From NCBI RefSeq assembly GCF_029855045.1, contig NZ_CP123228.1, forward strand, positions 6,200,001 to 6,264,000: a stretch of 64,000 nt of DNA, read 5' to 3'. A program made the translations under genes and the position numbers. Every line of letters starts with the position of its first letter. The first letter of the stretch is position 1. Below the pieces are notes generated by a model, which was given only the letters and a program-made list of their open reading frames with translations, searched no databases and was not told where the DNA came from. This DNA is from Piscinibacter sp. XHJ-5 (GTDB lineage Bacteria; Pseudomonadota; Gammaproteobacteria; Burkholderiales; Burkholderiaceae_C). This document shows, piece by piece, positions 8,400 through 63,783 of the stretch.

Positions 8400-9680
8400 T
8401 CAGGCCGCGACGCTCTCGGCGCGGCACACGCGCGGCCTGCTGTCCAGGGCCTTCAGCACACGGCCCAGCGCCGCCACGGCGTCGTCGATCTGTGCCCGCT
8501 CGATGACCAGCGGCGGTGCCAGGCGCACCACCGTGCCGTGCGTGTCCTTGGTCAGCACGCCTTCGGCCATCAGCGCCTCGCAGACGGCGCGCGCGCTGGC
8601 GAACGACGGATCGATCTCGACCCCGATCAGAAGCCCCTGTCCTCGCACCTCCTTGATGGCGGGGTGCGCCAGGCGGCGCAGCTGCGCCATCAGGTGGTCG
8701 CCGTGCTCCTGCGCGCGACGCGCCAGCTGTTCGCGCTCGAGCAACTCCAGCGCGGCCAGGCCGACGGCCGCGGCGAGCGGATTGCCGCCGAAGGTGCTGC
8801 CATGGTCACCGGGCGTGAACTGGGACATCACGTCCTCGCGGGCGAGAAAGGCGCTGACCGGCAGCAGGCCGCCGCCGAGCGCCTTGCCCAGCGTGAGCCC
8901 GTCGGGGCGCACGCCTTCGTGGTCGCAGGCCAGCATGCGCCCCGTGCGGCCGAGGCCGGTCTGCACCTCGTCGCAGATCATCAGGACGTTGTGCCGCGTG
9001 CAGATGTCGCGCACGGCCTTCAGGTACCCGGCAGGCGGCACGACGATGCCTGCCTCGCCCTGGATGGGCTCCACGATGAAGGCGGCGGTATGCGGCGTGA
9101 TCGCCGCCTCGAGCGCCTTGGCGTCACCGAAGGGCACGCTTGCGAAGCCTGGTGCGAACGGCCCGAAGCCGTCGCGGTACTGCGCTTCGGTGGAGAAGCC
9201 GACGATGGTGGTGGTGCGGCCGGCGAAGTTGCCTTCCGCGACGAGGATCTGGGCCTGGCCGTCCGGCACGCGCTTGACCTTGTAAGCCCATTTGCGGGCG
9301 GCCTTGATCGCGGTCTCGACCGCTTCGGCGCCGCTGTTCATCGGCAGCGCTCGCGCCATGCCGGTCACGCGGCACAGCGCGGCGAGGAAGGGACCGAGGC
9401 GGTCGGTGTGGAAGGCCCGGCTGGTGACCGACAGGCGGCCGGCCTGCTCGGTCAGCGCCTGCACCAGCGCGGGATGGCTGTGGCCGAAACTGACCGCCGA
9501 GTAGGCGGACATCATGTCCAGGTAGCGGCGGCCTTGCTCGTCGAACAGGTAGACGCCAGCGCCGCGGTTGAGCACGACCGGCAGCGGTTGGTAGTTGTGG
9601 GCGCCGTGGCGGTTCTCGAGCTCGATGGCGTGGGTCGCGGCTCGGGCTTGGAGCGCGGCGGCTCGGGCAGCGGTGGTCAT
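8400..9680 (-). CDS. rocD: Ornithine aminotransferase (class III)
   Basis: A 426-aa protein. ATG 9680 is chosen because AAGGAAG precedes it and the typical N-terminus 'ELENRHGAHNYQPLPVVLNRGAGVYLFDEQGRRYLDM' follows. Class III PLP motifs are present: 'MNSGAEAVETAIKAARKW', the PLP-ring Asp in 'LMICDEVQTGLGRTG' and the PLP lysine in 'LTLGKALGGG'. It converts ornithine and 2-oxoglutarate to glutamate semialdehyde and glutamate, the arginine/ornithine to proline/glutamate route. It is divergent from an Lrp regulator starting at 9813, a common arrangement for amino-acid-responsive control. Confidence 0.9.
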   Translation of the reverse strand: MTTAARAAALQARAATHAIELENRHGAHNYQPLPVVLNRGAGVYLFDEQGRRYLDMMSAYSAVSFGHSHPALVQALTEQAGRLSVTSRAFHTDRLGPFLAALCRVTGMARALPMNSGAEAVETAIKAARKWAYKVKRVPDGQAQILVAEGNFAGRTTTIVGFSTEAQYRDGFGPFAPGFASVPFGDAKALEAAITPHTAAFIVEPIQGEAGIVVPPAGYLKAVRDICTRHNVLMICDEVQTGLGRTGRMLACDHEGVRPDGLTLGKALGGGLLPVSAFLAREDVMSQFTPGDHGSTFGGNPLAAAVGLAALELLEREQLARRAQEHGDHLMAQLRRLAHPAIKEVRGQGLLIGVEIDPSFASARAVCEALMAEGVLTKDTHGTVVRLAPPLVIERAQIDDAVAALGRVLKALDSRPRVCRAESVAA

Positions 9681-56394: not shown

Positions 56395-56424
56395 CGGGGC
56401 GCCCGACTCCCGCCGAACGCCCCG
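56395..56424 (-). terminator. Intrinsic terminator of the rtcB operon
   Basis: On the minus strand CGGGGCG and CGCCCCG form a seven-base-pair stem around a 16-nt loop, followed by TTTTCGTT. It lies 18 bp after the rtcB stop, inside the 123-bp gap to the convergent VOC gene. Confidence 0.6.
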
Positions 56425-56441: not shown

Positions 56442-57659
56442 TCAGCCCTTGACACACACCACCTGCTTCAACGTGTGCACCACATCGACCAGGTCGCGCT
56501 GCGCTTCCATCACCGCGTCGATGTCCTTGTAGGCCGCTGGCGTTTCGTCGATCACGTCCTTGTCCTTGCGGCACTCGACGCCCTCGGTCGCTGCGCGGTG
56601 ATCCGCCAGCGTGAAGCGGCGCTTCGCCTCCCCGCGGCTCATCACGCGCCCCGCCCCATGCGAGCAGCTCTCGAAGCTGTCGGCGTTGCCCTTGCCGCGC
56701 ACGATGTAGCTGCGCGCGCCCATGCTGCCGGGGATGATGCCCAACTGCCCGGCCTTCGCGCTCACCGCGCCCTTGCGGGTGAGGTACACGTCTTCGCCGA
56801 AGTGGTGCTCGCGGCTCACGTAGTTGTGGTGGCAGTTCACCGCCTCGATGTGGCTCTGGAAGCTCTTGCGGATCACCGTCTTCGCGGCTTCGATCACGCG
56901 CTTCATCATCACCTCGCGGTTGATGGCGGCGAACTTCTGCGCCCAGCCCACGGCGCGCACGTAGTCTCCGAAGTAGCGGCTGCCTTCCTCGAAGTAGGCC
57001 AGGTCACGGTCGGGCAGATTGGCCTGATGGCGCATCGCGTCCTGCTTGGCCAGCTCGATGAACATCGTGCCGATGAAGTTGCCCACGCCGCGAGAGCCCG
57101 AGTGCAGCATGAACCACACGTTGCCCGCTTCGTCCAGGCACACCTCGATGAAGTGGTTGCCGGTGCCCAGCGTGCCCAGGTGCTGGAGGTGGTTGGTCTT
57201 CTCCAGCTTGGGGTAGTCGCGGCAGAGCTCGGTGAACTCCGGCTCCAGCTGCGCCCACGCGGTGTTCACCGAGCCCGGCGCCTTCTGCCACGCCCCCGGG
57301 TCGCGGCTGCCGGGTTGGCGGCCGTGCGGCACTGCACGCTCGATGGCCGAGCGCAGCGGGCCCAGGTTGTCGGGCAGGTCCTGCGCGGTCAGCGTGGTCT
57401 TGCAGGCGATCATGCCGCAGCCGATGTCCACTCCCACCGCGGCCGGGATGATGGCCTTGATGGTCGGGATCACCGAGCCCACGGTGGCGCCGATGCCGAA
57501 ATGCACGTCGGGCATGACCGCGATGTGCTTGAAGACGATGGGCAGGCGCGCGGCATTCTGCAGTTGGCGCTTGGCTTCGTCTTCGACCGGCACGCCGCGC
57601 GTCCACATCTTGAGCGGTACGCCGCCGGCGACGTCTTCGTGGATGTGGTTGGTTTCCAT
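56442..57659 (-). CDS. rtcB: RNA-splicing/repair ligase RtcB
   Basis: A 405-aa protein, near the E. coli length of 408. Metal-ligand Cys81 is in 'VGVDIGCGMIACK', guanylylated His about 334 in 'ESCSHGAGRVMSR', and 'LGTGNHFIEV', 'HSGSRGVG' and 'NCHHNYVSREHHFGED' complete the Mn/GTP site. RtcB joins 2',3'-cyclic phosphate or 3'-phosphate to 5'-OH RNA ends, as left by many tRNA-cleaving toxins. It is the last gene of a minus-strand unit running from the tRNA array through slipin. No rtcA or rtcR is visible here. Confidence 0.97.
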   Translation of the reverse strand: METNHIHEDVAGGVPLKMWTRGVPVEDEAKRQLQNAARLPIVFKHIAVMPDVHFGIGATVGSVIPTIKAIIPAAVGVDIGCGMIACKTTLTAQDLPDNLGPLRSAIERAVPHGRQPGSRDPGAWQKAPGSVNTAWAQLEPEFTELCRDYPKLEKTNHLQHLGTLGTGNHFIEVCLDEAGNVWFMLHSGSRGVGNFIGTMFIELAKQDAMRHQANLPDRDLAYFEEGSRYFGDYVRAVGWAQKFAAINREVMMKRVIEAAKTVIRKSFQSHIEAVNCHHNYVSREHHFGEDVYLTRKGAVSAKAGQLGIIPGSMGARSYIVRGKGNADSFESCSHGAGRVMSRGEAKRRFTLADHRAATEGVECRKDKDVIDETPAAYKDIDAVMEAQRDLVDVVHTLKQVVCVKG

Positions 57660-57672
57660 GGTTTTCTTTCAT

Positions 57673-58437
57673 TCAGTGGCTCAAGGCATCGAACACGGCC
57701 TCCACCATGAGCGCCAATGGCACCCCGTGGTTGCAGCGAACCTGTGTGACATGAGCGAGGAAGTCAGGGTTCAGAAGCTTGGCGGTGAATGCAGCCTTGG
57801 TGGCTGGCGCCAGCATCCAGTCTTTGACAATCGCTTGCAGCCGATCGCGGTCGCTAGCGAAAGGGTTGGACAGCGACTGCTCGGGCCAGAAGTCCCAGTA
57901 CGTGCTTCGGACGAACTGCACTGTCGAGGCAGGCCCGGGATGCGCCGTCCAGTGGTGCAGCAGCGGAGTCAACGCCAGCCCACCCGCATCCGCCATGATC
58001 AGGAGCGACAGCGGATCGGACCCGCAGCCACAACCGTCGGCGCCATTCAGATGGTGATCGAAGTAGGCCAGCATGAACTCGTCGAGCACGCTGGACTCTT
58101 CCATCGTGAAGGAACCCGCCGGGCAGCGGCCGACACGATCGAGATTCAGCTCGACGGAATGGTGGGTCTCTTCGCCCGCCGCAACCAGTTCGAGCCAGCG
58201 CGGCAGCAGGTATCGAACTTCCGCTGCAGGTTGCACCAGGTCAGCCATGGCGCCCGTGCAGTACTGATAGAAGTGGCGCGCCGTCAGCATGCGCAAGGGC
58301 CAGGTTCGCATTTCGCGCTCCAGTTCCTCGGGGATGCAGCAGGACGTGCACACGTTCAGTGGCCCGTTCGGTGCCTTGTGGCCTCCGAACACCTCGTGGG
58401 CGCGCCGAACCGCACGTTGCAGAGCAGGCGTGGTCAT
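57673..58437 (-). CDS. Unknown Cys-rich protein between slipin and rtcB
   Basis: A 254-aa protein from ATG 58437, which has AAGGAGA upstream. It contains a CxxCC motif ('NVCTSCCIPEELEREMRTW'), then a helical region with 'HFYQYCTGAM', 'ETHHSVELNLDRVGRCP', 'DHHLNGADGCGCGSDP' and 'LLHHW'. The many Cys and His residues hint at metal binding. It has no signal peptide or membrane segment. I do not recognise the family. Its position, 13 bp from rtcB and 48 bp from slipin, says it belongs to the RNA-repair operon. Confidence 0.75.
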   Translation of the reverse strand: MTTPALQRAVRRAHEVFGGHKAPNGPLNVCTSCCIPEELEREMRTWPLRMLTARHFYQYCTGAMADLVQPAAEVRYLLPRWLELVAAGEETHHSVELNLDRVGRCPAGSFTMEESSVLDEFMLAYFDHHLNGADGCGCGSDPLSLLIMADAGGLALTPLLHHWTAHPGPASTVQFVRSTYWDFWPEQSLSNPFASDRDRLQAIVKDWMLAPATKAAFTAKLLNPDFLAHVTQVRCNHGVPLALMVEAVFDALSH

Positions 58438-58485
58438 GATCTCTCCTTGGGTTGAGGGCCTGCCGGAGTACCGGCAGGCTAGCAC

Positions 58486-59631
58486 TCAACGCAGCTTCAC
58501 CAGCCCGTTGAGCACCTGGTCCAGACCTCCGAACACGGAGATCTTGTCGATGCGCTCGGCCACGCGCTCCAGCGTCTCGAGCTCCTTCAGCCGCAGGGCG
58601 ACGGGGTTGTCCTCCATCACCTTGGCGGTGTTGAGCAGCGAGCGGGTCGCGGCCGTCTCTTCACGCCGACGAATCACGTTGGCCTCGGCCGACTTCCCGG
58701 CCTCGACCACCTGGGCGAGGATGGTCTTCATCTCGCCCGGCAGCACGATGTCCTTCACGCCCACGCCGTCGAGCTGCAGACCGTAGTCCGCGAGCTTGGC
58801 CTCGACCTGGGCGGTCACGACCTCGTCGATCACCGTCTTGTTCTCGAGCAGTTCGTCGAGCGAGCGCGTGCCCACCGCGGCGCGCAGGCCGAACTGCAGC
58901 TCGCGGTACAGGTGCTCCGCGGGCTTGGCCAGTTCCTTGTAGGCCTTGAGCACATCGGTGTAGCGCCAGGTGGCCGACAGGTTCAGCCGCAGGGCCACCT
59001 TGTCGCGGGTCAGGATCTCCTGGCCCGTCACCTCGAGCGCCTGCAGCCGCAGGTCGACGAGTTCCACCGACACGTTGCGGTTGAACTTCCAGAACGCGTA
59101 CGAGCCGGCCGCGAGCAGCCGCTCGACCTTGCCGTCGACCCACAGGATGCCGGCGCCGTGCTCGGGCACCTGCACCTGCAGCACGCCGGCCAGGCCTTGC
59201 ACTGCACGTTGGCGCAGCTGGGTCTGCACGAGGCGCGCCACCACGGCCTGCGGCACCTCGGCCGACGCCGCCGGACCGTCGATGGCGATCACCTCGACCT
59301 GCACGTCGACCAGGCCCTTCCAGTACAGGCGCCGTGTGGCCGGCGCCAGCACCTCGACCAGCGCGCCGTTCTCGCTGCGCAGGCCGACCTGGGCCTCGCT
59401 GAGCTCGACGCGCACGAACTCGTCTGCGACCACCGCCGGCTCCTTGGCCATGAGGTAGTCGGCCAGGACGTGCGTGAACGCCGGCTGCTCCAGCGCGAAG
59501 AGTTCCACGCGCAGGGTGTCGAGGCCGGCGAACAGCCAGTGCGTGCCGGGTTGCAGCACGCGCTCGAAATCGCCATTGCGCAGCAGCAGGCCGCGCTCGT
59601 TCTTCTTCACGGTGACACGCTTGATCTTCAT
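58486..59631 (-). CDS. Slipin/SPFH (band 7) protein of the RtcB operon
   Basis: A 381-aa protein from ATG 59631, with AAGGAG upstream. An N-terminal beta-rich region ('VTVKKNERGLLLRNGDFERVLQPGTHWLFAG') precedes the band-7 domain ('EILTRDKVALRLNLSATWRYTDVLKAYKELAKPAEHLYRELQFGLRAAVGTRSLDELLENK', 'VEAKLADYGLQLDGVGVKDIVLPGEMKTILAQVVEAGKSAEANVIRRREETAATRSLLNTAKVME'). No strong N-terminal membrane anchor is visible, unlike many slipins. Slipins of this type recur beside rtcB. They are thought to oligomerise, and their role in RNA repair is unknown. Confidence 0.88.
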   Translation of the reverse strand: MKIKRVTVKKNERGLLLRNGDFERVLQPGTHWLFAGLDTLRVELFALEQPAFTHVLADYLMAKEPAVVADEFVRVELSEAQVGLRSENGALVEVLAPATRRLYWKGLVDVQVEVIAIDGPAASAEVPQAVVARLVQTQLRQRAVQGLAGVLQVQVPEHGAGILWVDGKVERLLAAGSYAFWKFNRNVSVELVDLRLQALEVTGQEILTRDKVALRLNLSATWRYTDVLKAYKELAKPAEHLYRELQFGLRAAVGTRSLDELLENKTVIDEVVTAQVEAKLADYGLQLDGVGVKDIVLPGEMKTILAQVVEAGKSAEANVIRRREETAATRSLLNTAKVMEDNPVALRLKELETLERVAERIDKISVFGGLDQVLNGLVKLR

Positions 59632-59820
59632 GGGTGTTCTCCTTGTCTTGAAGCGTGTGTTGAATGGGTGCCGTTACAGCAACGGCCGCGGACGACGAAT
59701 GCCTGGGCCCGGAGGCCACGGTGCGCGTCGGCGGCTCCCACGCAGAGAACCACCTCGGCTGGCCGTGGATGCGAAGCCCCGCGTGCTCGGCGCACGAGCG
59801 GCCGCCGCTGATGCACGGTC

Positions 59821-59841
59821 GGGCCATCATTAAGATGGCCC
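59821..59841. other. Perfect hairpin in the leader of the slipin gene
   Basis: GGGCCATC-ATTAA-GATGGCCC is a perfect eight-base-pair stem in the 274-bp interval between the last tRNA-like element and the slipin start. It has no U-run. A smaller hairpin (GGTC-TTTC-GACC) lies at about 59861-59872. These may mark RNA processing or translational control. No protein gene is evident in the interval. Confidence 0.4.
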
Positions 59842-59905
59842 TCGGTGCACGTTCGGCGGTGGTCTTTCGACCGTTTGTTGCTGGAGATGGCTTATCAGGC
59901 CATTC

Positions 59906-59972
59906 GTTGGGAAGGATTCGAACCTTCGACAGACTCCTTTCAGAGTTGCTCTAACCGACTGAGCTACACAAC
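59906..59972 (-). tRNA. Degenerate tRNA-Phe(GAA)-like element
   Basis: A 67-nt element with a normal D-arm (GCTC-AGTCGGTTA-GAGC) and T-arm (GAAGG-TTCGAAT-CCTTC). The anticodon arm is reduced to ACTC-TGAAAG-GAGT with a six-nt loop, so GAA is readable but one loop base is missing. The acceptor is only about six bases (GTTGTG against CCCAAC, one mismatch) and no CCA follows. It lies three bases after the CCA of the reduced element upstream. A functional charging tRNA is unlikely. Confidence 0.65.
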
Positions 59973-59974
59973 AG

Positions 59975-60028
59975 TGGTGGTCATCCGGGACTCGAACCCG
60001 GCAGCTCGCGCTGCAACCTTTGATGACC
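59975..60028 (-). ncRNA. 54-nt mini-tRNA-like RNA ending in ACCA
   Basis: It has an acceptor stem GGTCAT/ATGACC (six bp, perfect) and a canonical T-arm (CCGGG-TTCGAGT-CCCGG). Between acceptor and T-arm is a single hairpin (CAGC-GCGA-GCTG) in place of both D- and anticodon arms. The 3' end is A-CCA, encoded. The regular acceptor and T-arm with encoded CCA argue against random decay. The element resembles a tRNA minihelix with a small side hairpin, and should still be seen by CCA-end and T-arm-reading enzymes. Confidence 0.65.
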
Positions 60029-60049
60029 CATTCCGCTGCTTCCGGCGGC

Positions 60050-60170
60050 GCGGCATGTGTGGCACCCACGGACGAATCCGGATGCCGCACACCGGCGGGG
60101 CGGGCTTGCGCCCCAACCCCTGACCTGTCAGCGATCGCCTTTCACAGCAGACTCTGGAGCACCAGAGCCC
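60050..60170 (-). other. Structured interval between HNH gene and mini-tRNA
   Basis: Three strong hairpins are visible on the minus strand: CTCTGG-TGCT-CCAGAG at 60152-60167, just after the HNH stop; GGGGCG...CGCCCC around 60097-60114; and GGCATCC-GGA-TTCG-TCC-GT-GGGTGCC at about 60060-60085. The last is a seven-base-pair acceptor-like helix capped by a UUCG loop. No reading frame fits the interval. They look like RNA processing or RNA-structural elements. Confidence 0.45.
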
Positions 60171-60171
60171 T

Positions 60172-60747
60172 TCAGCTCAGGCGCGATCCCTTCGGCAGGC
60201 GCGCGGCCAGCCACTCGTGTACGTCGGCGCGGATGTGCCGGCCTTCGAGCAGAAAGTCCTCGAAGCGGCTCGGCACGTACGGCAGGTACACCAGCGGCAT
60301 GCCCGCTTCCTCCGGCGTGCGGTCGGCCTTGCGGCCGTTGCACGTGCCGCAGGCAGTGACCAGGTTCATCCAGGTCCAGCGGCCGCCGCGCGATTCCGGC
60401 ACGATGTGTTCGCACTGCAGATTGCGCTCGTGAAAGCGCTGGCCGCAGTAGGCGCACGTCATCCGGTCGCGACGGAACAGCTTCAGTTTGCTGAACGCCG
60501 GCACCACGTCGAACAGGTTGACCTTCGAGGCACCGCGCAACGCGATGATCGGAAACACGTCGATCACCGACTGCCGGCCGCGCACGACGTTGAAGCCGCC
60601 ACGCAGCGTGGCCAGCGGGCCGAGGCCGTCGACCCACGCCACCGAGCCTGTGGCCATGTGAACGGCCGCATGCTCGAGCGAGATCCACGCCTGCGGCGTG
60701 CCCTGGATGTCGAGTTGCAGCACGTGGCTGTGGTGTTGGTGGTGCAT
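60172..60747 (-). CDS. HNH endonuclease inside the tRNA array
   Basis: A 191-aa protein from ATG 60747, with AAAGGAGG upstream. The C-terminal half is an HNH nuclease with zinc cysteines: 'FRRDRMTCAYCGQ...NLQCEHIVPESRGGRWTWMNLVTACGTCNGRKADRTPEEAGM', containing C-x2-C twice, the EH of the catalytic HNH and the Asn. The N-terminal 80 residues carry the beta-type segment seen in many stand-alone bacterial HNH proteins. It lies between tRNA-Arg and the mini-tRNA on the same strand. It could cut DNA or RNA, and sequence does not tell. Confidence 0.85.
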   Translation of the reverse strand: MHHQHHSHVLQLDIQGTPQAWISLEHAAVHMATGSVAWVDGLGPLATLRGGFNVVRGRQSVIDVFPIIALRGASKVNLFDVVPAFSKLKLFRRDRMTCAYCGQRFHERNLQCEHIVPESRGGRWTWMNLVTACGTCNGRKADRTPEEAGMPLVYLPYVPSRFEDFLLEGRHIRADVHEWLAARLPKGSRLS

Positions 60748-60787
60748 GGTCGGCCTCCTTTCATGGCCGTTCTGTGATCGATCTGGT

Positions 60788-60863
60788 TGGTACGTCCAGG
60801 TGGATTCGAACCACCGACTTCGACCTTCGGAGAGTCGCGCTCTTGCCGCTGAGCTACGGACGT
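60788..60863 (-). tRNA. tRNA-Arg(CCG)
   Basis: A complete cloverleaf: acceptor ACGTCCG/TGGACGT (one G-U), D-arm GCTC-AGCGGCAA-GAGC, anticodon arm CGACT-CTCCGAA-GGTCG (anticodon CCG), five-nt variable loop, T-arm GGTGG-TTCGAAT-CCACC, discriminator A and encoded CCA. It is the most canonical member of the array and directly precedes the HNH gene. Confidence 0.85.
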
Positions 60864-60869
60864 ATGCAT

Positions 60870-60944
60870 TGGTAGCCCCTGACGATTTCGAAACGTCGGC
60901 CTTCGCTTTGTAGGAACGCTGCTCTGCCTCTGAGCTAGGGGGCT
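60870..60944 (-). tRNA. tRNA-Val(TAC)-like, atypical
   Basis: Acceptor AGCCCCC/AGGGGCT has six pairs with a C-A mismatch at 7-66. The D-arm is GCTC-AGAGGCA-GAGC. The anticodon loop CCTACAA shows TAC but with C at position 33 where U is nearly invariant. In the T-arm the usual G53-C61 pair is T-T. Discriminator A and CCA are encoded. The overall likeness to tRNA-Val is clear, but the broken invariants suggest impaired decoding. Confidence 0.75.
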
Positions 60945-60949
60945 GGTCT

Positions 60950-61025
60950 TGGCAGGGGCGACAGGATTCGAACCTGTGTGCACCGGGTCAAAGCCGGCTG
61001 TCTGATGCCTCTCGACTACACCCCG
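60950..61025 (-). tRNA. tRNA-Gln(TTG)-like
   Basis: Acceptor CGGGGTG/CGCCCCT has a C-T mismatch at 1-72 and a wobble at 6-67. The D-stem is three pairs (GTC/GAC) with a long loop. The anticodon arm GCCGG-CTTTGAC-CCGGT gives anticodon TTG, the T-arm is ACAGG-TTCGAAT-CCTGT, and discriminator G with CCA follows. It resembles bacterial tRNA-Gln. Confidence 0.75.
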
Positions 61026-61036
61026 ATGGAAGCCAT

Positions 61037-61111
61037 TGGTAGTCCGAGGTGGGCACGATCCACCGACCGTCGCCTCATGAGGGCGCCGCTCTTCCGCTGA
61101 GCTACCGGACT
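61037..61111 (-). tRNA. tRNA-Met(CAT)-like, altered T-loop
   Basis: Acceptor AGTCCGG/TCGGACT is full, the D-arm is GCTC-AGCGGAA-GAGC, and the anticodon arm GCGCC-CTCATGA-GGCGA gives anticodon CAT. The T-stem GGTGG/CCACC is intact, but the loop reads ATCGTGC in place of TTCGANN, so T54 and A58 are lost. Discriminator A and CCA are encoded. It could be an elongator Met, or an Ile tRNA if C34 is modified. Confidence 0.75.
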
Positions 61112-61117
61112 GTTGTG

Positions 61118-61203
61118 TGGTCCCCTCGGTCCGAGTCGAACGGACATGCCCTGTGGGCTCCGGTTTCTGAGACCGGTGCGTCTGCCTGTTCCGCCACGAG
61201 GGG
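61118..61203 (-). tRNA. tRNA-Leu(CAG)
   Basis: An 86-nt class II tRNA: acceptor CCCCTCG/CGAGGGG perfect, anticodon arm CCGGT-CTCAGAA-ACCGG (anticodon CAG), long variable arm GCCC-ACA-GGGC, T-arm GTCCG-TTCGACT-CGGAC, discriminator A and encoded CCA. It looks functional. Confidence 0.85.
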
Positions 61204-61211
61204 GTTGATGC

Positions 61212-61287
61212 TGGTGCGTCGCCAGGGACTTGAACCCTGACACGCCGGGTTAAGAGCCCGGTACTCTGCCGCTCGAGTTCGCGACGC
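61212..61287 (-). tRNA. tRNA-Lys(CTT)-like
   Basis: Acceptor GCGTCGC/GCGACGC is perfect, the D-arm ACTC-GAGCGGCA-GAGT, and the anticodon arm CCGGG-CTCTTAA-CCCGG gives anticodon CTT. The T-arm CAGGG-TTCAAGT-CCCTG, discriminator A and CCA follow. Position 8 is G in place of the conserved U, so the 8-14 tertiary pair is lost. Confidence 0.8.
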
Positions 61288-61309
61288 ATTGAAGTTGCAT
61301 GCGCTTGGG

Positions 61310-61380
61310 GGTGACCGGCCGGAGTCGAACCGGCACCGGCGGGGTCACATCCCGCAGCTCTGCCATTGAGCTACGGCCAC
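61310..61380 (-). tRNA. tRNA-His(GTG)
   Basis: Acceptor GTGGCCG/CGGTCAC with one G-U, D-arm GCTC-AATGGCA-GAGC, anticodon arm GCGGG-ATGTGAC-CCCGC (anticodon GTG), T-arm GCCGG-TTCGACT-CCGGC and discriminator C, as expected for His. The genome base before G1 is T, so the extra G-1 is not encoded. After the discriminator comes CCC-AA, so CCA is not cleanly encoded. It follows the PcfJ-like stop by 20 bp. Confidence 0.8.
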
Positions 61381-61400
61381 ACCCAAGCGCACGGGGTGAT

Positions 61401-62549
61401 TCACCGCAAAGTGATGCCGCGCGCCTTGGCCCAGCGCTCGATGACGTTGCGCTCGTCCTCGTGCGCCAGCCGGTTGGCGAGCCCGCGCACCTGCACTGCC
61501 CGGTGTTGCGGGTCGACTTCGATGGTCAGGAGACGATCGATCCGGTCCCTGGTGCAACGTCGCAGCGACCAGATCGATGCGTGACCGGCAATGCACTTGC
61601 CTGCGTAGGTCGACACGCAATGACGCATCGCCCGGCTTTCCATCACCAGGTCCTCGGCCTGCTTCAGCTGCTTGACCACGAAGCGCTCGCCCTTGGCCTT
61701 GGCGTCCTTGGACGAGGGCACCCACTCCCAATCTGCAAGGGGCGAGCCCGGCCACGCCGCGTTGGCCGCCCAGGTGTCTGCACCGCGCCCGTGGGCTCGG
61801 CGCCGCATCGCCTCGATGCGCTCGATGGCCGCGATCTCGTGGTGCCACTCGTGCATGCGGCGGGTGAGCGTCGGCAACGTGCGACCCTCCAGGCTGTAGT
61901 GCGGGTCCCGCCGCCGGCATGCGGCCAGGTAGTCGCACAGATCGTCGATCGTTTCCACCGGTGCCGGGTTGGCGCAGAAGAACCGCACCACCCCACGCCA
62001 GAACTCGATCTCGCCACGCGGCGCCCGGGCAATCTTCGAGCGCGCAACGCGCAGGGCCATGGCGGCGTCGCCGGCATAGGAGCGCGCGATGGCTTCCCAG
62101 AAGGCTTCATCGAAGCCCAGGCCAGCCGACGGATGGAGGAAGGCGTGGACTTCCTTGCGCGTCAACCACATGCTGGCGCCCGCCTTGTAGAGCGAGCCAC
62201 CACGCGCCGCCGTGACATACCACTGCCTGCGCAGCCGCACTTCGTCGGCGCCGAGGCCCGTGTCGTCGATCCAGATGCGCTCGAGCATCGCGGGAACCGG
62301 GTAGAGCGCGAAGAGATGCCGCGCCGCTGCGAGGCGCAGGCGCGCGGCGTCCCGCGTCTTCATCTGCGGATGCCAGGACCGGGGATCGCGCACGACTTCG
62401 CCGGAGAAGCCACGTTCAGCTTCTTCGACCGCCTTGCTGAAGTCTGGAGCGGGCCGTGCGCGGCGCACCACGCGGCGAAGCGCGGCGTCGCAAAGTTCTA
62501 TTCGTTCGCGCTCGGCGTCCTGCCTGCGCTGGATCATCGAGCGATTCAT
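61401..62549 (-). CDS. PcfJ-like protein inside the tRNA array
   Basis: A 382-aa protein from ATG 62549; there is no clear ribosome site, and ATG 62537 is an alternative. The C-terminal third holds the PcfJ-family pattern: 'ESRAMRHCVSTYAGKCIAGHASIWSLRRC', then 'LLTIEVDPQHRAVQVRGLANRL' and 'ERWAKARGITL'. The first 200 residues are helical and basic. PcfJ is named after a conjugative-plasmid gene and its biochemical role is unknown. The location between two tRNA-like elements, on the same strand as the RtcB operon, suggests RNA-related work. Confidence 0.7.
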   Translation of the reverse strand: MNRSMIQRRQDAERERIELCDAALRRVVRRARPAPDFSKAVEEAERGFSGEVVRDPRSWHPQMKTRDAARLRLAAARHLFALYPVPAMLERIWIDDTGLGADEVRLRRQWYVTAARGGSLYKAGASMWLTRKEVHAFLHPSAGLGFDEAFWEAIARSYAGDAAMALRVARSKIARAPRGEIEFWRGVVRFFCANPAPVETIDDLCDYLAACRRRDPHYSLEGRTLPTLTRRMHEWHHEIAAIERIEAMRRRAHGRGADTWAANAAWPGSPLADWEWVPSSKDAKAKGERFVVKQLKQAEDLVMESRAMRHCVSTYAGKCIAGHASIWSLRRCTRDRIDRLLTIEVDPQHRAVQVRGLANRLAHEDERNVIERWAKARGITLR

Positions 62550-62641
62550 GGTCGTTTGGGTGGGTTGAAGTGAAAAGTGAACGAAGCGAATCCATCCGGT
62601 GACGGGTTCCGGCGCCGCCCAATCGTTGCGGCCGTTTTCCA

Positions 62642-62667
62642 CCCCTGAAGCGTGAGCTCGACAGGGG
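62642..62667. other. Hairpin between tRNA-like element and pcfJ-like gene
   Basis: CCCCTG and CAGGGG pair around a 14-nt loop within the 128-bp gap 62550-62677. No other feature is seen in the gap. It could be a processing site separating the tRNA-like RNA from the mRNA. Confidence 0.35.
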
Positions 62668-62677
62668 CTTCTTGAAC

Positions 62678-62740
62678 TGGTGCCCCCGGGCGACGATTCG
62701 AACGCACGGCCTGGCGCTCTGCCTGCTGCGCACCGAGGGC
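62678..62740 (-). ncRNA. 63-nt tRNA-like RNA without anticodon arm, ending in ACCA
   Basis: Acceptor GCCCTCG/CGGGGGC pairs fully (one wobble) and is followed by A-CCA. A D-arm-like segment (GCGC-AGCAGGCA-GAGC) is present. Only about ten nt separate it from the T-loop TTCGAAT, so there is no room for an anticodon arm. The T-stem is weak (three pairs). The element keeps the ends that CCA-reading enzymes see but cannot decode. Confidence 0.6.
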
Positions 62741-62750
62741 TGGTGTGATT

Positions 62751-62817
62751 CCACTTCGGCTGTGCCCACCAACACCATGTCGCGTGGCCTCGCAGTGCAT
62801 GGACACAGCCGAAGTGG
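62751..62817. other. 14-bp inverted repeat linking tRNA-Gly to the next tRNA-like RNA
   Basis: CCACTTCGGCTGTG (minus strand, beginning with the CCA of tRNA-Gly) pairs perfectly with CACAGCCGAAGTGG 39 nt further on. An inner CCATG/CATGG pair lies in the loop. The hairpin would mask the CCA end of the tRNA precursor and could be an RNase III-type processing site. Confidence 0.6.
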
Positions 62818-62890
62818 AGCGGATGACGAGTCTCGAACTCGTGGCCTCGGCCATGGCGTGGCCGCGCTCTGCCTGCTGAGCTACATCCGC
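62815..62890 (-). tRNA. tRNA-Gly(GCC)-like, C33
   Basis: Acceptor GCGGATG/CATCCGC is perfect, the D-arm GCTC-AGCAGGCA-GAGC, and the anticodon arm CGGCC-ACGCCAT-GGCCG gives anticodon GCC. Position 33 is C where U is expected. The T-arm ACGAG-TTCGAGA-CTCGT, discriminator T and CCA follow. It is the first tRNA of the array, about 50 nt after the boxA. Confidence 0.8.
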
Positions 62891-62940
62891 AAAGGTGCAA
62901 GGCGAACCATCGGCCAGTACCGAGGTCGACTTGCGGCAAG

Positions 62941-62953
62941 TTGTTAAAGAGCA
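62941..62953 (-). promoter_or_regulatory. rRNA-type boxA antitermination element
   Basis: TGCTCTTTAACAA on the minus strand is identical to the boxA of bacterial rRNA leaders, where NusB/NusE load the antitermination complex. It lies about 50 nt before the first tRNA of the array. No rRNA gene follows. Confidence 0.75.
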
Positions 62954-62954
62954 T

Positions 62955-62988
62955 CCACCGCTGCCGGTGGCGGCGATCCATCGATCGC
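62955..62988 (-). promoter_or_regulatory. Hairpins directly before boxA (boxB-like)
   Basis: CCACCG-GCAG-CGGTGG (62955-62970) ends one base before boxA, as boxB does in rrn leaders. A second hairpin GCGATC-GATG-GATCGC lies at 62973-62988. A TTGACG at 62997-63002 could be a -35 box, but no good -10 lies at the right distance. Confidence 0.5.
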
Positions 62989-63024
62989 CAGGCCTGCGTC
63001 AACGCACAAGCCGGGTGAAGAGAC

Positions 63025-63061
63025 AAAGAAAAAGGCCCGGAACCTTTCGGATTCCGGGCCT
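63025..63061 (-). terminator. Strong intrinsic terminator upstream of the array
   Basis: On the minus strand a perfect ten-base-pair stem (AGGCCCGGAA and its complement, nine-nt loop containing CGAAAGG) is followed by TTTTTCTTT. It ends the short transcript from the promoter at 63304-63332, or acts as an attenuator in front of the array. Confidence 0.85.
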
Positions 63062-63089
63062 CTGCGAACAGAGCGTGGACCTTGCGCGG

Positions 63090-63245
63090 CTAGGCGCTGC
63101 CCTCTCCCGGATTCAACGGACCCTCGCTCCGATCAAGGCAATAGCCCGTCGGAATGGCCCCGCGCATCGCCGCCGCCAATGACGGGACGAACGCGACCCG
63201 CCCCTGCAGAGGTCGGTGGGTCCGAATGACGTTGCGCGATTTCAC
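63090..63245 (-). CDS. Possible 51-aa small protein
   Basis: GTG 63245 has AGGA about seven bases upstream and opens a frame of 51 codons ending in TAG at 63090. The product would be basic at the N-terminus ('KSRNVIRTHRPLQGRVAFVPS') and end '...GPLNPGEGSA'. It lies between a strong promoter and a strong terminator, which is the main support. No family is recognised. It may equally be a non-coding RNA. Confidence 0.35.
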   Translation of the reverse strand: MKSRNVIRTHRPLQGRVAFVPSLAAAMRGAIPTGYCLDRSEGPLNPGEGSA

Positions 63246-63303
63246 GTTGATGTCCTGTCGTCCTGACTGTGGCTCTCGCCAGCCGGTTTCTCGATGGGAG
63301 CGG

Positions 63304-63332
63304 ACTGTAAAGAGTCTTTACGCCGCCGTCAA
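63304..63332 (-). promoter_or_regulatory. Strong sigma-70 promoter, minus strand
   Basis: TTGACG (63327-63332) and TACAGT (63304-63309) are separated by exactly 17 bp, and a GC-rich discriminator (CCGCTCCC) follows. This is the look of a stable-RNA promoter. Transcription would start near 63297 and meet the terminator at 63052-63033, giving an RNA of about 265 nt unless antiterminated. Confidence 0.65.
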
Positions 63333-63783
63333 CCCCCCGCGAGAATCGAGGTATCGGACGCATCGGCTGGCGCGGTATGGGTGTGGCAGCTCGAGAATGC
63401 GGCGGGGCGTCGGCCAATCGAAGACCTGCCCAGCACCGGCGTGCCGTCGTTCCGGTGCGGCACTCGGTACGACGACGTTGGGCCACCACGTCTACGTGGC
63501 GTGGGCGTTGCCCGCGCTGCTCGATAACGCAGCAAGGGCGCTGCCGACTGAGGCGCCTGGTGAGTTGTCGCCGCAGCGTTTGCAGGCTCTGGCCGGCCGC
63601 TTCACAGTGGGCAGAGGAGCGTACCCAGCGTCCGATGGGCGTGTCCGATAAGCCTGAACACACGTGGCGGAACGCCGGGCGCCGAACGCAATGATGTCTC
63701 CGCAGGTCCCTAGATCGCCGGATTGACGTCCGCCATGTCCGGGCGTCCCATCGATTTCTCAACAGTGCACTTCGGGAGGCACC
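63333..63783. other. Gene-poor interval
   Basis: I see no convincing gene in these 450 bases. Open frames exist on both strands because of the GC content, but none has a ribosome site together with family-like sequence. GCCAC-CACGTCTAC-GTGGC near 63485 is a minor hairpin. Confidence 0.4.

Follow-up and report, generated by a model that had tools for sequence, protein, structure and literature searches.

The stretch analysed here, 64,000 nucleotides of Piscinibacter sp. XHJ-5 (NZ_CP123228.1, positions 6,200,001 to 6,264,000; in the following called the window), lies within a complete 6.65-Mb genome and carries an RNA-repair island, in which a slipin gene and rtcB stand behind an array of tRNA genes. 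The activator of the rtc operon is encoded by rtcR, and RtcR is a CARF-domain sensor. A comparison of related loci revealed that slipin and rtcB usually stand beside rtcR, that tRNA arrays are found almost exclusively where rtcR is missing, and that the coupling of array and repair genes is not due to chance. Furthermore, the array is preceded by a regulatory head (63031-63332), which lies upstream of and outside the run (56442-62953) described in the original prediction and contains a candidate attenuator. We favor, with a rough probability of 0.6, a reading in which stalled translation would allow the polymerase to read through into spare tRNAs and RtcB-mediated repair.

The near-exclusion between array and RtcR is seen in a set of 107 slipin loci. 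A search of 300 genomes of the order yielded 26 with slipin, and a scan of named genomes yielded at least 547 slipin relatives, the 80 best of which entered the set. The set consists of the window, these 80 named loci, 24 further genomes of the order, a broken copy (L053) and one viral contig; two genomes are present twice, since L129 is the genome of L034 and L171 that of L040. Among the 100 loci with at least 1.5 kb of upstream sequence, 70 have RtcR and no array, 22 have an array and no RtcR, five have neither and three have both. In these last three, the leader element was miscounted (L050), RtcR stands beside another rtcB 6 kb away (L124) or the tRNAs lie beyond rtcR (L146).

The two types of loci also differ in their regulatory sequences and accessory genes. 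A sigma-54 motif within 1 kb of slipin is present in 44 of 72 loci with RtcR in comparison to none of 31 loci without it, the window included. The terminator motif of the array heads, on the contrary, was found in 23 of 35 loci without RtcR (22 by a strict pattern, L042 by a looser one) and in one of the 72 with RtcR (L120, at -2595). Ten of the 12 RtcR-less loci lacking the motif have less than 3 kb of upstream sequence; the remaining two are L048, where a weak match to the attenuator model described below (27.3 bits) stands just before the array, and the broken copy L053. Relatives of the HNH gene (18/35 versus 0/72) and of the PcfJ-like gene (5/35 versus 0/72) are likewise confined to loci without RtcR. 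On the level of whole genomes, RtcR (PF06956) is encoded in 12 of the 26 slipin genomes and RtcA (PF01137) in seven of these 12 in comparison to one of the 14 others. Neither PF06956 nor PF01137 has a match anywhere in the genome of strain XHJ-5. The original prediction had regarded the coupling as chance if most rtcB-slipin loci lacked the array and its tRNA-like genes were not transcribed, or not together with rtcB. Most loci do lack the array (75 of 100), but a chance coupling is not upheld, because the array is found where RtcR is absent and has its own regulatory head.

The tRNAs of the array appear to be additional to a complete housekeeping set. ARAGORN detected seven tRNAs in the window, all of them inside 60788-62890, and Rfam added a Val-like (38.1 bits) and a Phe-like one (37.3 bits), both exceeding the Rfam tRNA gathering score of 29 bits. 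With the leader element set aside, eight tRNAs lie within about 2.1 kb, a high number and density as in tRNA array units. A second island of the same genome (island B, C1:5.7-9.98 kb), adjoining a gyrB-like reading frame identified by eye, harbors a boxA, 12 ARAGORN tRNAs, an HNH gene and an rtcB which is 58% identical to that of the window. Together, both islands hold 21 of the 64 Rfam tRNA matches of the genome (9 + 12). Since the 43 distinct tRNA sequences outside the islands cover all 20 amino acids and the island tRNAs are only about 60-76% identical to the nearest housekeeping tRNA, the islands represent a second, diverged tRNA set. The complete set elsewhere and the same boxA/tRNA/rtcB/HNH content of the second island further argue against a chance origin of the run.

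Loci of the array type start with a sigma-70-type promoter lying over a palindrome, followed by a leader open reading frame (ORF) of about 50 codons and a conserved terminator. In the window, the promoter (TTGACG-N17-TACAGT, 63304-63332, minus strand) is the sole promoter-like site found in 62900-63600, and promoters related to it were recognized by eye in the relatives. The palindrome of 15 bp (GTAAAGACTCTTTAC; arms GTAAAGA and TCTTTAC around a central C; 63307-63321) covers the spacer and the -10 element and is a candidate repressor site. At up to one mismatch, it occurs at two sites in the entire 6.65-Mb genome, one per island. It is present in eight of 30 genomes at 14 sites, 13 of which are located at heads of the array type; the sole other site lies in G219, a genome with RtcR. 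A protein binding the palindrome was not found.

The leader ORF (63090-63245, minus strand) comprises 51 codons plus stop, with a GTG start picked by eye and the C-terminal sequence NPGEGSA. Within its final codons lies X (UCCGGG, 63106-63111, minus strand), the candidate 5' strand of an antiterminator. Downstream, the intrinsic terminator (AGGCCCGGAATCCGAAAGGTTCCGGGCCTTTTT, 63031-63063, minus strand) contains the 5' arm Y (CCCGGA, 63053-63058), which can pair either with Z (63036-63041) or with X at the end of the leader ORF. With starts chosen by eye, the leader frame is open in 24 of 24 loci in comparison to one and ten in the other two frames. The stop codon is kept 11-22 nt after X together with the frame in these 24 loci, and L043, L046 and L049 retain X while reading it in different frames. 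A regulator gene upstream of the terminator was considered and rejected, as the conserved frame at this place is the short leader ORF. L031 (~2200-2530) and L033 (~9265-9583, minus strand) contain another set of palindrome, leader ORF and terminator, located between slipin and rtcB; thus, rtcB has its own head in these two loci.

Whether Y and X form an alternative helix was addressed by pairing and covariation. Summed over 26 loci, the X-Y pairing reaches 471.5, in comparison to a mean of 398 and a maximum of 446 for shuffles. The flanks of X covary with Y (34 pairs versus 18.4 in permutations, 5e-5, 23 loci), and the X-Y covariation of 0.136 was matched by one of 500 shuffles and drops to 0.064-0.070 when the strands are slid by one position. 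For the terminator itself, none of 500 shuffles reached the observed covariation. In folds of the leader still without Z, X:Y is above 0.5 for 14 of 24 free leaders, for 12 of 24 carrying a ribosome in the middle of the ORF and for one of 24 when the ribosome sits at the stop codon, a low number which partly follows from the masking of X and to this extent speaks less for a switch. On sequence level the terminator is clear, and a candidate antiterminator is supported by the loci as a set but is weak in single loci.

A covariance model reaching from X to the terminator was derived from 22 loci and used to scan 399 genomes with strict filters. At 42.5 bits or more, 22 matches in 14 genomes were obtained, and among the matches listed 19 precede rtcB, slipin, PcfJ, HNH or a tRNA array; the remaining three are located at a contig end (G254:C32) or not before repair or tRNA genes (G350 and G152:541095). 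Nine of the 22, again among those listed, come from outside the model: six stand before repair or tRNA genes, including a near copy of the window in G264, one is at a contig end and two are neither. No repair gene was found downstream of the strong matches in G350 and G152; a small ORF follows the match in G152 as well as a weaker one in G309. The match in G350 (L273, C1, 170356-170462) is an 80.8-bit head with the palindrome and a hairpin like that at 62752-62816 of the window, and is perhaps a decayed island. Since several heads precede an rtcB that is accompanied by neither slipin nor array (L274, L276, L279, L280, L284 and L285), it is rtcB, and not the array, to which the head belongs.

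The same kind of head occurs in front of Ro60-like genes in two relatives, L216 (5740-7973) and L240 (G083, C3). In G254, promoter, palindrome and terminator of this type precede a gene with the Pfam domain vWA_Ro60 (E 1.3e-16; TROVE below the cut), and in G083 a similar, weaker head of 27.2 bits is followed by tRNA-Pro, Ro60, tRNA-His, tRNA-Glu, rtcB and HNH in a row. The heads in G254 and G083 make slipin and Ro60 look like alternative scaffolds in one scheme, while the genome of strain XHJ-5 itself has no match for TROVE or vWA_Ro60.

Several observations weigh against an attenuator that senses translation. The codon constraint on the leader is weak, pN/pS being 0.42-0.83 for ten pairs of loci and 1.65 for L043/L046; the starts were chosen by eye and are preceded by a Shine-Dalgarno-like sequence in 14 of 24 loci. 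The 16-20 kinds of amino acid in each leader peptide may be no more than chance, and this richness is not used as support here. In full-length equilibrium folds the terminator wins every time, and therefore only a kinetic switch would work. Taken singly, most loci have an X-Y complementarity no higher than GC-rich chance, two of five covariation measures are null (changes on both sides, 387/500 shuffles; further pair types, 137/500), and X:Y hardly forms in L108, L110, L041, L043, L216 and L125. For the leader of the window, X:Y is 0.08 with a ribosome at 60% of the ORF, but 0.60 or more with a ribosome at codon 25 and at codon 35. Below the strong matches of the model, nine fetched matches of 36.9-39.4 bits are followed by rtcB in four cases and by nothing recognized in five. 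The exact boxA is present in eight of the 35 loci without RtcR, which makes it a frequent extra and no rule. Finally, the 80 named loci were selected as the best among at least 547 relatives, and on the slipin tree the locus types need just two to four changes; the loci are therefore not independent and represent a handful of evolutionary events rather than 100.

A repressor bound to the palindrome might control the head alone. The terminator would then serve as an insulator or as a constant brake, the leader ORF would be incidental, and the operon would still supply tRNAs and repair. The position of the palindrome over the -10 element is similar to that of the TrcR sites in Anabaena, as described in excerpts of PMC10272220, and the presence of just two sites in the genome as well as the weak codon constraint would fit. 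This is at odds with a leader frame and a stop 11-22 nt after X that are kept in 24 loci, with an X that is preserved across the differing reading frames of L043, L046 and L049, and with the covariation of its flanks with Y. Furthermore, the rtcB heads without a palindrome in L274, L276, L279, L284 and L285 retain both X and the terminator. Control by a repressor only is thus considered unlikely.

For the candidate attenuator, the following sequence of events is proposed. If the leader is translated up to its stop codon, X would be covered by the ribosome and the terminator would form. If the ribosome stalls early, because a tRNA is cut or a drug blocks it, X would be free for Y and the polymerase would continue into the operon. 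The read-through transcript would then provide the diverged spare tRNAs together with RtcB.

The array is combined with an old and widespread core of slipin and rtcB. Among the best 80 of at least 547 relatives, the slipin of the window is closest to those of Sphaerotilaceae, e.g. Aquabacterium and Piscinibacter; rtcB is found near slipin in most loci, and in the window the SPFH/Band_7 gene is linked to rtcB. A single relative of slipin lies on a viral contig, and a phage origin is not borne out. On the 5' side of slipin lies a structured RNA, conserved and about 500 nt long, in which one or two tRNA-like elements are framed by a 5' and a 3' domain. In the window, these correspond to a 5' domain kept across loci (60031-60125), tRNA-like 1, a mini-tRNA of 54 nt read by eye (~59976-60030), tRNA-like 2, which is the Phe-like element with a variable or absent anticodon loop (59904-59973), and the 3' structured domain (59662-59903), which ends near UGUAACGGCAC, all on the minus strand. 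The covariance model R1 gives tRNA-like 2 of the window 63.9 bits, its own copy being part of the model. Counted by eye, this model finds tRNA-like 2 in 97 of 100 slipin loci, all except L128, L158 and L164; 20 of the 100 searched loci built the model, and the other seven of the 107 are outside the count. The anticodon of this element varies, with many identities assigned by ARAGORN, and in several lineages (e.g. Burkholderia and Acidovorax) the arm is a tetraloop hairpin. An identity as Y RNA was rejected, as all YrlA matches fall well short of the threshold (in the window 21.7 of 69 bits, at 59948-60003) and the genome has no Ro60. The mini-tRNA of L114 (9627-9678) resembles the human mascRNA/menRNA family at a score below threshold (23.2 of 42.5 bits), which may reflect chance or a common minimal tRNA shape.

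In 2016, Burroughs and Aravind reportedly described RtcB systems in which SPFH/Band-7 proteins occur together with a 'novel tRNA-like molecule' (Nucleic Acids Research, NAR). The core of slipin, RtcB and tRNA-like RNA observed here is probably the same system, and is to be taken as known. To our knowledge, a tRNA array, an attenuator or an exclusion of RtcR was not part of that description.

The original prediction suggested that the array supplies spare or decoy tRNAs, which RtcB repairs. Spare tRNAs with repair are favored here by the diverged duplicates and by a precedent in Anabaena, while the decoy part gained no support. As decoys, tRNAs and tRNA-like RNAs would bait ribotoxins or anti-phage anticodon nucleases, and RtcB would recycle them. 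The leader tRNA-like element, often without an anticodon loop and with the tetraloop hairpins of Burkholderia and Acidovorax, would suit such a role, and YrlA has been suggested to be a possible competitive inhibitor by Hughes et al. (excerpts of PMC7790460). The island tRNAs, on the contrary, retain ordinary anticodons of many isotypes as a reserve would, and nothing found indicates cleavage, which renders decoys rather improbable in comparison to the reserve of spare tRNAs favored here.

All components of the minus-strand run listed in the original prediction are present according to ARAGORN, Rfam, Pfam and reading by eye, as is the terminator-like hairpin at its end (56395-56424). The run starts with a boxA (TGCTCTTTAACAA, 62941-62953) and tRNA-Gly(GCC) (62815-62890, ARAGORN). 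The predicted anticodon-less RNA proved, by eye, to be a long hairpin (62752-62816), similar to hairpins in L031 and L273, with a tRNA-like element lacking a normal anticodon arm (62678-62740) behind it. The PcfJ-like gene (61401-62549, PF14284, E 2.6e-14) is followed by tRNA-His(GTG) (61308-61380), tRNA-Lys(CTT) (61212-61287), tRNA-Leu(CAG) (61118-61203), tRNA-Met(CAT) (61037-61111), tRNA-Gln(TTG) (60950-61025), the Val-like tRNA (60873-60944) and tRNA-Arg(CCG) (60788-60863), all called by ARAGORN except the Val-like one. The gaps from His to Arg measure 5-20 nt. The tRNA-Met of the window as well as tRNA-Met and tRNA-Ile of island B carry GATCG in the T loop instead of the usual TTCGA, with the partner base changed too. 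In both islands, tRNA-His is preceded by a T, the usual encoded G-1 seems to be absent, and no CCA is encoded.

Behind the tRNAs, the HNH gene (60172-60747, HNH_5, E 3.9e-17) and the leader RNA are followed by slipin (58486-59631, SPFH/Band_7 in Pfam), the gene of a family-less Cys-rich protein (57673-58437; zero matches in Pfam, NCBIfam and PADLOC) and rtcB (56442-57659, Pfam RtcB, E 1e-128). Relatives of the Cys-rich protein are present between slipin and rtcB in loci with and without RtcR alike (L110, L112, L117, L126, L133 and L143). PcfJ relatives are rare (three of 300 genomes), and relatives of the HNH family were found in 147 of 399 genomes, commonly outside islands. HNH was rejected as an island-specific marker, being common elsewhere and standing alone in most of ten neighborhoods viewed. 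A reading as a defense system was rejected as well, since the PADLOC matches of HNH are generic HNH domains. The proposed role of HNH and PcfJ as effectors gained no support, HNH being common outside islands, though within the slipin loci it is confined to those without RtcR. A small ORF with an SEC-C motif (PCPCGSG), lying after a strong ATG in another frame, is present in L031, L033, L048, L105, L216 and island B (C1, ~8.67-8.48 kb). By eye, the two frames join at TTTC in six of six cases (TTTCGA in five), as for a programmed +1 frameshift.

That a mobile element with a tRNA array and a homing HNH gene settled beside rtcB, so that their co-location is merely historical, is very improbable, as HNH being the most widespread gene of mycobacterial arrays (excerpts of PMC5966550), its relatives in 147 of 399 genomes and the varying array content among loci are opposed by the near-exclusion with RtcR, the two islands in one genome and the array-less heads before rtcB.

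Several known systems resemble parts of the island. The nearest functional precedent for spare tRNAs with repair is trn/TrcR of Anabaena, which according to excerpts of PMC10272220 shares a tRNA array, rtcB, slipin and HNH. There, one ribbon-helix-helix (RHH) repressor, TrcR, with sites overlapping the -10 element, controls rtcB, a slipin gene, HNH genes and an operon of 26 tRNAs, which is induced by translation-targeting antibiotics. These genes are scattered, whereas in the window one run with leader ORF and terminator is present. The RtcR-controlled rtc operons of Salmonella, E. coli and Pseudomonas have rtcB in common with the island; excerpts report a regulation by damaged tRNAs in Salmonella (PMC7790460) and an SPFH gene within the rtc locus of P. 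aeruginosa (PMC13086221). In contrast, the island displays a sigma-70-type promoter, palindrome, candidate attenuator, tRNA array, HNH and PcfJ, and neither RtcR nor RtcA was found in the genome. The operon of Ro60/Rsr, Y RNA and RtcBA also combines a scaffold protein, a tRNA-like RNA and RtcB, in contrast to the missing TROVE/vWA_Ro60 match in this genome and a YrlA match of 21.7 of 69 bits.

On the regulatory side, the trp and his attenuators use a short ORF, a stalled ribosome and alternative RNA structures. The same elements are described in PMC12121999 for toiL-topAI, a regulatory upstream ORF (uORF) sensing translation stress and several antibiotics; topAI uses Rho, whereas here an intrinsic terminator would control tRNA genes and RNA repair. 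Mycobacterial tRNA array units similarly combine dense tRNA genes with HNH genes, but RtcB is not named in the available portion of that text (PMC5966550), and the array described here is chromosomal with a boxA and a candidate attenuator. In the open-licence literature, no description was found of an arrangement in which a tRNA array and a candidate leader-peptide attenuator take the place of RtcR. As far as searched, this arrangement is undescribed, while the core of slipin, rtcB and tRNA-like RNA was already known.

More tentatively, and with somewhat less than even odds, this family of Burkholderiales might have swapped the CARF-domain RtcR for a test message of about 50 codons, which would antiterminate reserve tRNAs, a slipin or Ro60 scaffold, RtcB and HNH whenever its translation fails for want of any tRNA. 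Within this regulon, the small SEC-C protein, which seems to require a +1 frameshift at UUU-C, would report failing translation in a second way.

The trigger and the targets of bacterial RNA repair are still debated, and RtcR is the one switch that is well studied. If the proposed mechanism is true, the leader is predicted to respond to the loss of single tRNAs, and three separate literatures would be joined, those on rtc operons, on silent tRNA arrays such as trn of Anabaena and on antibiotic-sensing uORFs. A large set of environmental bacteria would then sense RNA damage via failed translation and answer it with replacement by spare tRNAs and repair by RtcB.

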